This document shows, one piece after another, positions 48,416-61,874 of a stretch of DNA of 64,000 bases. The notes beneath the pieces were generated by a model. It was not told the DNA's origin. It searched no databases and saw only the letters and a program-made list of their open reading frames with translations. Source of the stretch: Rhabdothermincola sediminis (GTDB taxonomy: Bacteria; Actinomycetota; Acidimicrobiia; Acidimicrobiales; Acidimicrobilacustridaceae); the NCBI RefSeq assembly GCF_014805525.1, contig NZ_JACFSZ010000016.1, forward strand, positions 1-64,000, in the 5' to 3' direction. Made by a program: the position numbers and the translations under genes. Numbering within the stretch: the first letter of the stretch is position 1; each line of letters starts with the position of its first letter.

Positions 48416-48954
48416 GCGACCTGGTGTCTGACCGGCTCGGACCGGGAACGGATCTCGACTCCCTGCAGGGTCAGCGAGCGGGGTTCGTCACCCGGGCGGC
48501 CGCGTTCGTCATCGACTTCCTGGTGGTCGTGGCCGGCTATCCCGCGATCATGTGGGGCATCGGCGTGCTCATCGGGTTGGTGCGCTTCGAGCAGCCGCAG
48601 TATCCCGAGCTGCCGGATGGGCTCGAGTTGTCGATCTCCGCCGCTTGGACGTGGTGCTACTTCGCCGGGTCCTGGTACGCCGTGGGTCGCACGGTCGGCC
48701 AGGCGGTGATGGGGGTCAGGGTGGTGGGACGGGGCAGGTTCCGGGTGGGGCTCGTCCGTTCGCTCCTGCGCACCTGGGTGATGTTCCTCACCCTGTTCGT
48801 GGTCGGACCGGTGTGGCTCCTGCTCAGCACGAGCCGCCTCGCGATCCACGATCGTGTGGCGCGCACGCAGGTGATCTACGAGCGGTCACGGAAGCGGTCC
48901 GACCTCCGGGTGGGGCTCGGTCCCGGCGGAACGGCGGGGCCTCAGCCGAAGTAG
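48412..48954 (+). CDS. RDD-family membrane protein
   Basis: 180 residues from ATG 48412. RAGFVTRAAAFVIDFLVVVAG contains the Arg...Asp pattern of the RDD domain. Three membrane segments follow (about 27-48, 72-92, 118-140), and the loop TVGQAVMGVRVV is typical of the family. Function is not established; some members exchange sodium. Overlaps the preceding repeat protein by 4 nt and the redoxin gene on the other strand by 13 nt at the 3' ends. Confidence 0.8.
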   Translation: MSDLVSDRLGPGTDLDSLQGQRAGFVTRAAAFVIDFLVVVAGYPAIMWGIGVLIGLVRFEQPQYPELPDGLELSISAAWTWCYFAGSWYAVGRTVGQAVMGVRVVGRGRFRVGLVRSLLRTWVMFLTLFVVGPVWLLLSTSRLAIHDRVARTQVIYERSRKRSDLRVGLGPGGTAGPQPK

Positions 48955-49523
48955 TCGGGCTCGTTGCCCGGCTTCCATTTGATGTTGCAGCCCAGGCTGG
49001 GGTGCTGATCTTCCGGTACGGGTCGGCCGCTCAGCACCGCTTCCACGGCCGCCTCGAGGTCGGCGCCGGTCACCGGACGTTCGTTGCCTGGCCGGCTGCC
49101 GTCGAACTGGCCGCGGTAGACCAGTCGCCGATCGCCATCGAACAGGAAGAAGTCCGGTGTGCACGCAGCCCGGTACGCCTTGGCCACGGATTGGTCCTCG
49201 TCGAACAGGTACGGGAAGTCCCAACCGGCCTGCCGGGCGAAGGTCACCATCTGCTCGGGAGCATCGGCGGGGTAGGCGTGCACGTCGTTGCTGTTGATCC
49301 CCACCACCGCGACACCGCGGGCGATCCAGCGGCGGGTCAGCAGTCCCAGCTGCTTCGCGATGTGCTTGACGTACGGGCAGTGGTTGCTGAGGAAGATGAC
49401 CAGCAGGGCCGGTGCCCCGCCGAGCTGGTCGAGCGAGACCCGCCCGCCTCCGACGGGATCCGGCAGGTCGAAAGTCGGTGCTTGGGTGCCGAGTGGCAGC
49501 ATGGTCGAGTTGACCGAGACCAT
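48942..49523 (-). CDS. Redoxin / AhpC-TSA-like thioredoxin-fold protein
   Basis: 193 residues from ATG 49521-49523. APTFDLPDPVGGGRVSLDQLGG is the opening of a peroxiredoxin/TlpA fold. The active site is FLSNHCPYVKHI, with a single Cys where TlpA proteins have CxxC. TPDFFLFDGDRRLVYRGQ and a C-terminal SLGCNIKWK follow. The latter, with its second Cys, is characteristic of a group of thioredoxin-family proteins whose role is not defined. It shares an overlapping divergent promoter with the Rieske protein gene. Confidence 0.8.
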   Translation of the reverse strand: MVSVNSTMLPLGTQAPTFDLPDPVGGGRVSLDQLGGAPALLVIFLSNHCPYVKHIAKQLGLLTRRWIARGVAVVGINSNDVHAYPADAPEQMVTFARQAGWDFPYLFDEDQSVAKAYRAACTPDFFLFDGDRRLVYRGQFDGSRPGNERPVTGADLEAAVEAVLSGRPVPEDQHPSLGCNIKWKPGNEPDYFG

Positions 49524-49530
49524 GCACCCC

Positions 49531-49536
49531 ACTCTA
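49531..49536 (-). promoter_or_regulatory. -10 box of redoxin gene, overlapping the divergent box
   Basis: TAGAGT on the minus strand, 7 nt from ATG 49523. It shares the bases 49535-49536 (TA) with the TACGGT box on the plus strand. Confidence 0.6.
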
Positions 49537-49540
49537 CGGT
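49535..49540 (+). promoter_or_regulatory. -10 box of Rieske gene, overlapping the divergent box
   Basis: TACGGT, 7 nt before ATG 49548. The pair forms ACTCTACGGT, with the same TA step used in both directions. Confidence 0.6.
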
Positions 49541-49547
49541 GCAGCCC

Positions 49548-49925
49548 ATGGGGTGGACGCCGGTGGCCCGCTCCGAGACCGTCGAGCCGGGGGCGGTGGT
49601 CGAGATCACCCTGGACGGCCGCGAGGTGGTCCTGTGGCGAGGGCGCTCGGGGGTGATCTGCGTGATGGATGCCCGTTGCCCCCATCAGTGGTCGCCGCTC
49701 GGGGCCGAGGGCCGGGTCGACGGGGACGAGCTGGTGTGCACGGCACACTTCTGGCGTTTCGATCGGGAGGGCTGCGGCACCAAGGTCACGGTCCTCGGTC
49801 GTCGCGATCCCAAGGCGGATATCAGGGTCCACCCCAGCCGGGAGCGCGACGGGGTGGTGGAGGTGCTGCTGGGCACCGCTCAGCTCGAGGGTCCACCGCA
49901 GGCGGAGGGCGGCGTGGCACGTTGA
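49548..49925 (+). CDS. Rieske [2Fe-2S] protein
   Basis: 125 residues from ATG 49548. ARCPHQWSPLG and CTAHFWRFD supply the Cys-x-His and Cys-x2-His ligands of a Rieske cluster, spaced 17 residues apart. It is a free-standing small ferredoxin-type Rieske protein, not a cytochrome bc1 subunit (no membrane helix). Its role might be electron transfer to an oxygenase or nitrite-reductase-like partner, none of which is in view. Its divergent redoxin neighbour suggests a redox-related context. Confidence 0.83.
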   Translation: MGWTPVARSETVEPGAVVEITLDGREVVLWRGRSGVICVMDARCPHQWSPLGAEGRVDGDELVCTAHFWRFDREGCGTKVTVLGRRDPKADIRVHPSRERDGVVEVLLGTAQLEGPPQAEGGVAR

Positions 49926-49929
49926 GGTG

Positions 49930-51117
49930 GTGTCCGACCTCGTGGACCAGCCGCCGAGCGCCGAGGGGCGGGAGCCATCGGACCCGGCCCCGGCACCCGA
50001 ACGGATGCCGCCGTGGGTGCCCCGGGCCATCGCCTTGTTCATGGTGGGCATCGGCAGCCTCTTGGTCGTCGAATGGCTCCTCGACCGACTCCAGAGGCTG
50101 CTCCTCGACCTGCTGGTAGCCCTGTTCGTGTCGTTCGCCCTGGAGCCCGCGGTCAACTGGTTGCAGCACCGTGGCTGGCGCCGCGGGTGGGCCACCGGCG
50201 TCTCCTTCCTGGGGTTGTTGGTCTTCCTGGCCGTGTTCCTCTTCGCCATCGGGGCGGTGGTCGTCGATCAGGTCTCGCAGTTCATCGACCAGACTGACGA
50301 GTACGCCCAGAACGTGGCCGACTTCGTCAACGACCACTTCGGGGCGAACATCTCCGTGGACCAGCTGCGCGATGAGCTGACCCGCGAGGACGGGCCGGTC
50401 CGTGGGTTCGCGACCCGGCTGGCAGGGAACGCGCTCGGTATCGGGATGAGCGCGCTGGCCGCGCTGTTCCGGCTGCTCACGATCGGACTGTTCACCTTCT
50501 ACCTGGTGGCCGACGGGCCCAAGTTCCGGCGCTCCGTGTGCTCGTTCCTGCCACCGGCTCGCCAACAGCGCGTCCTGGAGACCTGGGAGATCGCCATCGA
50601 CAAGACCGGCGGCTACCTCTACTCACGGGCCCTGCTGGCCGGGTTGTCCACCCTCTTCCACTGGGTCGCGTTCGAGCTGACCGGGGTGAACTACGCCCTG
50701 GCGCTGGCGCTGTTCGTCGGGATCATCTCCCAGTTCGTGCCCACGATCGGGACCTATATCGCCGGTGCGGTGCCGGTGATGGTGGCGTTGGCAGCCGATC
50801 CCGTCCAGGCGTTGTGGGTGCTCGGCATCGTGGTCGTGTACCAGCAGGTCGAGAACTACGTCTTCGCCCCCCGGATCACGTCCCGGACCATGCAGTTGCA
50901 CCCCGCGGTGGCGTTCGGGACGGTGATCGCCGGGGCCGCGCTCTTCGGGGGTGTCGGGGCGCTGCTGGCCCTCCCGGCGGCGGCGGTGCTGCAAGCCCTG
51001 GGTAGCGCCTACATCGCCCGGCACGAGGTGATCGAGAGCAGGATGACGGCCGAACCGCGCCCCAAACGGTCCCGCGCCCGGTTCACTAGGGGGAGGCCGC
51101 GCGAAGATGGGCGCTGA
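49930..51117 (+). CDS. AI-2E family transporter (YdgG/PerM-like)
   Basis: About 395 residues from GTG 49930; GTG 49927 is the adjacent alternative, and both lie just after the Rieske stop. Eight membrane segments by eye, in the usual pattern: two at 38-90, one long outer stretch (about 110-170), and five towards the end, including GIISQFVPTIGTYIAGAVPV and YQQVENYVFAPRI, which mark the family. Members export the signal AI-2 or act as ion exchangers. The substrate is not given by sequence. The C-terminal tail is Arg/Lys-rich. Confidence 0.85.
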   Translation: MSDLVDQPPSAEGREPSDPAPAPERMPPWVPRAIALFMVGIGSLLVVEWLLDRLQRLLLDLLVALFVSFALEPAVNWLQHRGWRRGWATGVSFLGLLVFLAVFLFAIGAVVVDQVSQFIDQTDEYAQNVADFVNDHFGANISVDQLRDELTREDGPVRGFATRLAGNALGIGMSALAALFRLLTIGLFTFYLVADGPKFRRSVCSFLPPARQQRVLETWEIAIDKTGGYLYSRALLAGLSTLFHWVAFELTGVNYALALALFVGIISQFVPTIGTYIAGAVPVMVALAADPVQALWVLGIVVVYQQVENYVFAPRITSRTMQLHPAVAFGTVIAGAALFGGVGALLALPAAAVLQALGSAYIARHEVIESRMTAEPRPKRSRARFTRGRPREDGR

Positions 51118-51143: not shown

Positions 51144-52004
51144 ATGGCCAACCCGGTTCTCACCCCTGAACGCTGGCAGAGGGAGCTCACCGACGACCAG
51201 CCGGGCTGGGCCGCCCCGCGAGCGGCCACCGCGGCGGGCTACGCCGCCGGGGGCGTGCGGGAGCCGATGGCACCCCCCATGGCGGGGGCACCCACGATGA
51301 CGGTCGGCGGCACCCTCACCGCGACCGGCGTGCTGTTCCTGTGCATCCTGCTCACCGGGTGGGTCGGCTGGATCCAGGTGACCCAGACCGCGGTGGACCG
51401 GACCCTGCCCGACGGGACGGTCGTCACCGACATCGTGACCGACTACCCGGGCTGGGTCTTCTGGCCGATGATCGCCGCGGTGGTGGTCGCGTTCGTGACT
51501 GTGGTCAAGCCCCACCTGGCCCGGTTCCTCGCCCCGCTGTACGCACTGGGGTTCGGCTTCTCGATCGGCGCCATCTCCCACATGTACGACTTGCAGTACG
51601 ACGGCATCGTCGTGCAGGCCGTGGGCGCCACGCTGGCGGCACTCGGGGCGATGTTCGTCCTCTACGCCACCCGGATCATCAAGGTCACCCAGCGCTTCGT
51701 CATGGTCGTGGTCGGGGCGACGGCAGGGATCTTCGTGCTGTACCTGGTGACGTGGATCGCGTCGATCTTCGGCGCTGACATCGCCTTCTGGCGCCAGCCG
51801 ACCGCGCTCGGCATCGGCATCTCGGTGGTGATCTGCATCGTGGCTGCGCTCAACCTGGCGATTGACTTCGCGTTCATCGAGCAGGCCACGAAGGCCGGCG
51901 CGCCGAAGTACATGGAGTGGTACGGCGCGTTCGGCATCACGGTGACCCTGGTCTGGCTGTACCTGGAGATGCTGCGGCTGCTGGCCCTGCTCCGCCAGGA
52001 CTGA
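51144..52004 (+). CDS. Bax inhibitor-1/YccA-family membrane protein
   Basis: 286 residues with a 50-residue Pro/Ala-rich cytoplasmic head and seven membrane segments starting near 55. GGTLTATGVLFLCILLTGWVGW, YALGFGFSIGAISHMYD and the last helical pair with EWYGAFGITVTLVWLYLEMLRLLALL are characteristic of the actinobacterial YccA-type BI-1 proteins. GAGGAG precedes the ATG by 9 nt. Role unknown; calcium leak and stress tolerance are reported for relatives. Confidence 0.83.
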   Translation: MANPVLTPERWQRELTDDQPGWAAPRAATAAGYAAGGVREPMAPPMAGAPTMTVGGTLTATGVLFLCILLTGWVGWIQVTQTAVDRTLPDGTVVTDIVTDYPGWVFWPMIAAVVVAFVTVVKPHLARFLAPLYALGFGFSIGAISHMYDLQYDGIVVQAVGATLAALGAMFVLYATRIIKVTQRFVMVVVGATAGIFVLYLVTWIASIFGADIAFWRQPTALGIGISVVICIVAALNLAIDFAFIEQATKAGAPKYMEWYGAFGITVTLVWLYLEMLRLLALLRQD

Positions 52005-61823: not shown

Positions 61824-61858
61824 CGTGGACCTCCTCGACGTCCGGATGCTAGACAACT

Positions 61859-61874
61859 ATACCCTCAGGGGTAT
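61859..61874. promoter_or_regulatory. Operator-like dyad and -10 box of persulfide dioxygenase gene
   Basis: ATACCCTCAGGGGTAT is an almost exact dyad. On the minus strand the -10 box TATAGT (61856-61861) overlaps its end. A protein bound here would block RNA polymerase. CsoR/CstR-family repressors bind such TACC-GGTA dyads with central C/G runs, and CstR controls persulfide genes, so a CstR-type repressor is the first candidate. No such gene is in the window. Confidence 0.65.

Follow-up and report, generated by a model that had tools for sequence, protein, structure and literature searches.

Bidirectional promoters in bacteria have been defined by divergent transcription start sites that lie 7 to 25 bp apart (PMC10268837, as excerpted). 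In the excerpted text of another report, start-site spacings of 18, 10, and 23 bp are given as the common classes of such promoters, and steric exclusion of the polymerases is stated; the basal activity of five tested Escherichia coli bidirectional promoters was too low for competition, and strong activation of one direction could repress the opposite one in that organism (PMC12825309). The divergent genes csoR and cueA of Bradyrhizobium liaoningense have partly overlapping −10 elements that have been termed a bidirectional promoter. According to the portions of that report available, the csoR start site was mapped to the A of its ATG, making the mRNA leaderless, and cueA has a leader of 42 nt; the authors put forward polymerase competition as probably accounting for a decrease in csoR expression (PMC5057107). 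For Mycobacterium tuberculosis, the excerpted account describes a TANNNT −10 motif with no conserved −35 motif, calls closely juxtaposed divergent promoters common, and includes one pair of divergent neighbors, prpD and Rv1129c, for which both mRNAs were mapped as leaderless (PMC3898074). Finally, the excerpts of a study of the TA-led genes of Actinobacteria place TANNNT approximately 12 bp upstream of the start codon and assign 18.9% of Streptomyces coelicolor genes to this class; divergent pairs were not the subject of that study, and the word "divergent" does not occur in its main text (PMC3160421).

The window analyzed here (the whole stretch of 64,000 nucleotides from Rhabdothermincola sediminis) contains a redoxin gene on the minus strand and a Rieske gene on the plus strand whose start codons, CAT at 49521-49523 and ATG at 49548-49550, are separated by only the 24 bp of ACTCTACGGT. 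Within this gap, the ten-base unit ANNNTANNNT at 49531-49540 holds −10-like elements on opposite strands with shared bases. The minus-strand box, TAGAGT (49531-49536; ACTCTA on the plus strand), faces the redoxin gene, and the plus-strand box, TACGGT (49535-49540), faces the Rieske gene. The two overlap by 2 bases, the TA step at 49535-49536 being common to both, and each is separated from its own start codon by a spacer of 7 nt. A sequence-only reading of this DNA had pointed to the arrangement, and its coordinates, both boxes, the common TA, the 7-nt spacers, and the 24-bp gap between the start codons were all found to be exact by direct reading. As in the bacterial bidirectional promoters described by Warman, Grainger, and colleagues (2021-2026), the −10 elements overlap on opposite strands. 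If both mRNAs begin at the ATG, the predicted start-site gap would be 25 bp, which is inside the 7- to 25-bp range and near the 23-bp class; the distance imposed by a shared TA is 11 bp plus both spacers, or 23 bp with 6-nt spacers and 25 bp with 7-nt spacers. We consider it likely that the site is a very compact bidirectional promoter in which two leaderless −10 elements overlap in ANNNTANNNT.

The plus-strand gene (49548-49925) encodes a small Rieske [2Fe-2S] protein of 125 amino acids (Pfam PF00355, 2.6e-17). Its start matches that of many homologs; a codon-usage gene caller picked the in-frame GTG at 49539-49541 as the start instead of the ATG at 49548. By eye, no Shine-Dalgarno sequence precedes the ATG. 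A gene for an AI-2E family transporter (plus strand, 49927-51117; Pfam PF01594, 6.7e-60, searched from 49930 with the start called at 49927) begins 1 to 4 bp past the Rieske stop codon, and the two genes are therefore probably carried on one transcript.

There is no convincing −35 element on either side of the overlap. A scan of 49380-49700 for sigma-70-like promoters with spacers of 16 to 18 returned no match. The weak −35-like sequence TTGACC at 49510-49515 (plus strand) lies 19 bp before TACGGT, within codons of the redoxin gene, and its role is doubtful. A −35 element was also considered as the source of direction and was rejected, as only 2 of the genome's 170 boxed promoters have a TTGAC that starts 15 to 35 bases upstream. 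At 24 bases upstream of the −10 box, T is overrepresented (43 of 170 leaderless promoters here and 91 of 398 over ten genomes), a hint that these promoters may have an upstream element, perhaps the remnant of a −35 sequence other than TTGAC. The plus-strand box has a T in this position (49511), and the minus-strand box does not.

The minus-strand gene (48942-49523) encodes a protein of the redoxin/AhpC-TSA family with 193 amino acids (Pfam PF00578, 1.8e-18; stop codon verified), the nearest solved relatives of which are 2ywi, 3u5r, and 2cvb. Its start is the one found in most homologs, at the same residue or one codon off. A G-rich stretch, GAGTGGGGTGC, lies upstream of the redoxin ATG and can be read by eye as a poor ribosome-binding site. 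At its other end, the redoxin gene overlaps the 3' end of an RDD-family gene on the plus strand (end at 48954) by 13 bp on opposite strands (48942-48954). At the redoxin loci of three other genomes (L032 of G017, L034 of G015, and L040 of G010), the divergent neighbor starts with MSNPLLN-like residues. This neighbor resembles, by eye, the Bax-inhibitor-like gene found at 51144-52004 of the window, and a 50-residue piece of it had no Pfam match. The layout at these three loci is as if the Rieske and AI-2E genes had been inserted or lost between the redoxin gene and the Bax-inhibitor-like gene.

The genome at large carries a strong signature of leaderless promoters. In sampled stretches totaling 864 kb (26% of the genome), with genes called by the codon-usage gene caller, TANNNT occurs 6 to 9 nt before 150 of 797 predicted starts (approximately 19%), against a background of 7.4 per four positions farther upstream, from which about 95% of boxes with this spacing are estimated to be genuine. 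The peak is sharp, with 33, 21, 14, and 11 starts in the first 464 kb having the box at 6, 7, 8, and 9 nt, respectively, and 0 to 2 starts for each spacing of 0 to 5 nt, which indicates that TANNNT-driven leaderless genes are common in R. sediminis. Nine relatives show the same peak at 4 to 16% of starts, the lowest being G002 with 3 of 68. With the first T located 13 bp upstream of the start codon and approximately 19% of predicted starts involved, the genes here are similar to the TA-led genes as these appear in the excerpted study (PMC3160421). In the sampled stretches, genes that lack the strict box show a CANNNT peak at exactly 6 nt before the start (52 versus 15 per position), and it is therefore probable that leaderless genes outnumber what TANNNT alone reveals; GANNNT also peaks at 6 nt (47 versus 18) and is raised at 4 to 5 nt too, where ribosome-binding sites could explain it. 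TANNNT is strongly underrepresented overall, with 63 occurrences in the window versus 171 expected from shuffles, and the ratio of observed to expected occurrences in sampled stretches of four genomes was 0.26 to 0.37, versus 0.41 to 0.72 for the controls ANNNTTNNNT and ANNNATNNNT. Both boxes of the redoxin/Rieske site are ordinary members of the class: of the 306 promoters in the strict set (ten genomes), 19 have TACGGT and 5 have TAGAGT.

The homologs of both genes were also assessed for boxes. A homologous region was kept if the match had an E value of 1e-15 or better and identity of at least 40%, began no later than residue 8, and had 60 bases of DNA upstream; a box was counted if its spacing to an in-frame start codon (ATG or GTG) close to the homologous position was 6 to 9 nt, and counts refer to distinct upstream regions. 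Eight phylum-level loci were used for box scoring only. Besides the target, a strict TANNNT box precedes the start in 22 of 28 Rieske regions and is lacking in the remaining 6, while the control motif T...AT was found in 2 of 29, both of them TACCAT, a sequence compatible with both patterns. The Rieske regions cannot be taken as independent, since 16 of the 22 with a box come from one genus (g12); outside that genus, the box is present in 6 of 12. Among the redoxin regions other than the target, 9 of 26 have the strict box and 17 do not, and the control motif was found in 0 of 27. Close redoxin homologs with the strict box 6 to 8 nt before the start are those at L005, L032, L034, and L040; no strict box was found before the equally close homolog in G047 (L027), and further homologs have near-boxes, such as CACAAT or GACAAT, 6 to 7 nt before the start. 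With the genome-wide TANNNT peak and the boxes before homologs, the two leaderless −10 elements claimed in the sequence-only reading look genuine.

Divergent pairs with a leaderless box on each side are frequent in this genome. In this tally, a gene could use any ATG or GTG that was in frame and no more than about 90 nt from the called start, and the control motif was treated likewise. Both sides carried a box in 30 of 137 divergent pairs of the genome sample (target not counted), the reversed control motif scoring 0 of 137, and in 22 of 238 divergent pairs in nine relatives, versus 2 of 238 for the control. The TA-to-TA distances here are 4, 11, 14, 15, 16, 16, 17, 24, 30, 32, 36, and 36 bp and continue up to 179 bp, and the starts are no more than 60 bp apart in 12 of the 30 double-boxed pairs in the 864 kb. 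A shared TA was seen in 0 of the 137 other pairs here and in 1 of the 238 pairs in the nine relatives. The target pair is missing from the 137-pair tallies and from the set of 398 promoters because the caller ran the redoxin open reading frame over the Rieske gene; a caller model that retains it, applied to the first 464 kb, gave 66 divergent pairs, of which 17 are double-boxed and the target alone shares a TA. The redoxin/Rieske site is the tight end of a common arrangement that forms a continuum of TA-to-TA spacings.

The full pattern, CATN7ANNNTANNNTN7ATG, has a single occurrence in the 3.29-Mb genome (listed on both strands, as the pattern reads identically in reverse complement); its reversed control has none. 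The unit ANNNTANNNT occurs 4 times, versus 12.7 expected, and the target is the only one of the four with a start codon 5 to 10 nt away, which it has on both sides. The one pair in the relatives that shares a TA, AACCTAGGAT, is a second possible case of the arrangement and is located at about 11089-11110 of L140 (G003:C26), with starts 22 bp apart and 6-nt spacers; its left open reading frame is short and uncertain, and the right one reads as a glycoside-hydrolase-like protein. A further symmetric double −10 sequence, ACTATACCCT, is located between genes at 61856-61865 of the window, where no start codon lies 5 to 10 nt away on either side and the minus-strand gene would carry a leader of approximately 30 nt.

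It is possible, if rather unlikely in our estimation, that only one of the two boxes works, probably as the leaderless promoter of the Rieske gene, and that the other gene is transcribed with a leader from elsewhere, its box being the by-product of one A. Once the first box is in place, a single A completes a second one that shares its TA; as only this one extra base is fixed, the second box taken by itself carries less weight than the first. Which gene would lack a working box is suggested by the lower frequency of strict boxes before redoxin homologs (9/26) relative to Rieske homologs (22/28), and by the G-rich stretch described above, since a leadered redoxin mRNA could begin inside the Rieske gene. 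The csoR-cueA promoter has just such a division, as far as the excerpted report describes it, with overlapping −10 elements, one leaderless side, and a 42-nt leader on the other (PMC5057107). However, several close redoxin homologs do have the strict box, though that in G047 does not, and the scan of 49380-49700 offered no sigma-70-like promoter from which an alternative transcript might start. The required A is, moreover, scarce where promoters are concerned: an A four bases before TA, the shared-TA form, was found in 19 of 398 leaderless promoters versus 106 of 757 intergenic TANNNT sequences (ten genomes, p 4.8e-7), and a second box by chance is thus less likely than base composition implies.

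An A directly after the box is depleted as well (3 of 398 leaderless promoters versus 66 of 757 intergenic TANNNT sequences, p 9.5e-10), and in the strict start set the two symmetry positions hold an A in 17 and 2 of 306 promoters. This depletion may mean that one-way promoters are favored. A base preference of the sigma factor is an equal rival, however, given the low frequency of A just before the box, the values for coding TANNNT, and the results for weaker boxes. Both A and T are infrequent immediately ahead of the box, an effect that symmetry would not produce. Among coding TANNNT sequences, 114 of 1,225 have an A four bases before TA, which is also below the intergenic value. For the weaker boxes at 6 to 7 nt, A follows 2 of 69 CANNNT and 3 of 71 GANNNT sequences, compared with 4.5 to 5.0% of CANNNT/GANNNT matches located 20 to 39 nt upstream, the T-A step being rare in these genomes anyway; there is no clear lack of A after the weaker boxes, contrary to what symmetry avoidance predicts. 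An A four bases before the weaker boxes was found in 7 of 69 (CANNNT) and 14 of 71 (GANNNT), versus backgrounds of 20% and 19%, respectively. The symmetry A was present in 13 of 192 divergent and in 6 of 206 codirectional promoters, which is not a significant difference (p 0.098). It could be imagined that this high-GC lineage selects for one-way leaderless promoters and that the redoxin/Rieske exception is kept because firing in either direction but never both at once, with zero untranslated RNA, is of benefit to its genes, but we regard this as improbable. Avoidance of the bases that would make a promoter fire both ways is a question applicable to any genome with mapped start sites.

A selected switch, in which the overlap would be retained to make expression alternate between redoxin and the Rieske/AI-2E unit, is very unlikely. 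Its appeal is that both genes encode redox proteins by family (Pfam) and that overlapping −10 elements should not be occupiable simultaneously. The sequence-only reading had argued that RNA polymerase can take one direction at a time, and this stands, since two polymerases could hardly occupy the site together given the steric exclusion stated in the excerpted report (PMC12825309). Competition between redoxin and Rieske for promoter DNA may be possible in principle, and the authors of the csoR-cueA study, as excerpted, proposed polymerase competition for that system (PMC5057107). The five E. coli bidirectional promoters, however, did not show competition at basal activity in the portions of the report available (PMC12825309), and many close divergent pairs in the present genome would be mutually exclusive without common bases; the 12 double-boxed pairs with close starts would exclude a second polymerase too, so that exclusion does not depend on the shared TA.

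The distribution of the overlap among relatives also argues against a switch. In a search of 61 genomes with both proteins, adjacent divergent redoxin and Rieske genes were found, besides the target, in only three (G012, G008, and G047), with gaps between the starts of 141 bp, 50 bp, and about 114 bp, respectively, the Rieske start of G047 being uncertain. In G012 each gene has a strict box, with 115 bp from TA to TA; G008 has TAGCGT before the Rieske gene and only CACACT before the redoxin gene, 24 bp apart; and G047 has a box for neither. A gap of about 1 kb separates the two genes in G041. A redoxin homolog at an E value of 1e-30 or better was present in 17 of 298 genomes of the order, target included, and no Rieske neighbor was found at 11 additional redoxin loci (L109 to L119) within approximately 1.5 kb on each side, where the contig allowed. 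The shared TA is absent from all three relatives found with the gene pair, and the overlap is thus private to the target lineage, as far as sampled. On this point the earlier expectation that relatives with the pair would have both boxes was partly contradicted, and conservation of the overlap was rejected as a sign of selection.

That neither box is a promoter and the arrangement is a coincidence is scarcely credible in light of the strong genome-wide peak at 6 to 9 nt, the avoidance of TANNNT elsewhere, and the boxes before homologs.

The reading that we prefer is that of a compact bidirectional promoter with two leaderless −10 elements. In this scheme, sigma factor reading TACGGT would start an RNA at the A of the Rieske ATG, giving a transcript of the Rieske and AI-2E genes, and in the opposite orientation, reading of TAGAGT would start an RNA at the A of the redoxin ATG; ANNNTANNNT would thus be active in both directions. 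The most likely origin would be a shortening of the gap, in the target lineage, between neighbors that both had leaderless promoters beforehand, and sharing of the TA would have cost only the one additional fixed base. The two orientations should be physically exclusive, yet this probably has little effect on output at ordinary levels of activity. With both promoters, zero leaders, and 24 bp between the start codons, the site is near the smallest divergent control region that could be written. Single-base changes should knock out either direction or both, so that the site would be a clean system in which to ask whether polymerases compete at overlapping −10 elements.

The comparison with described systems places the site between several of them. 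In the promoters of Warman, Grainger, and colleagues, the overlap is of the same kind as here; the difference is that both start sites here would be the start codons of leaderless protein-coding genes. The csoR-cueA promoter, as excerpted, differs from the redoxin/Rieske promoter in having one leaderless side only, −35 elements on both sides, and a site for the CsoR repressor over the overlap (PMC5057107). The prpD/Rv1129c pair, to the extent that the excerpted account covers it, is divergent and leaderless on both sides, as is predicted here, and the two-base overlap of the boxes is a feature of the redoxin/Rieske pair. Among the matches listed from the open-licence part of PubMed Central, themselves excerpts, no report was found of divergent genes that are both leaderless and have −10 boxes that share bases. 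The redoxin/Rieske promoter looks real, and it looks like a local, extreme case of a type of two-way promoter that has already been described.
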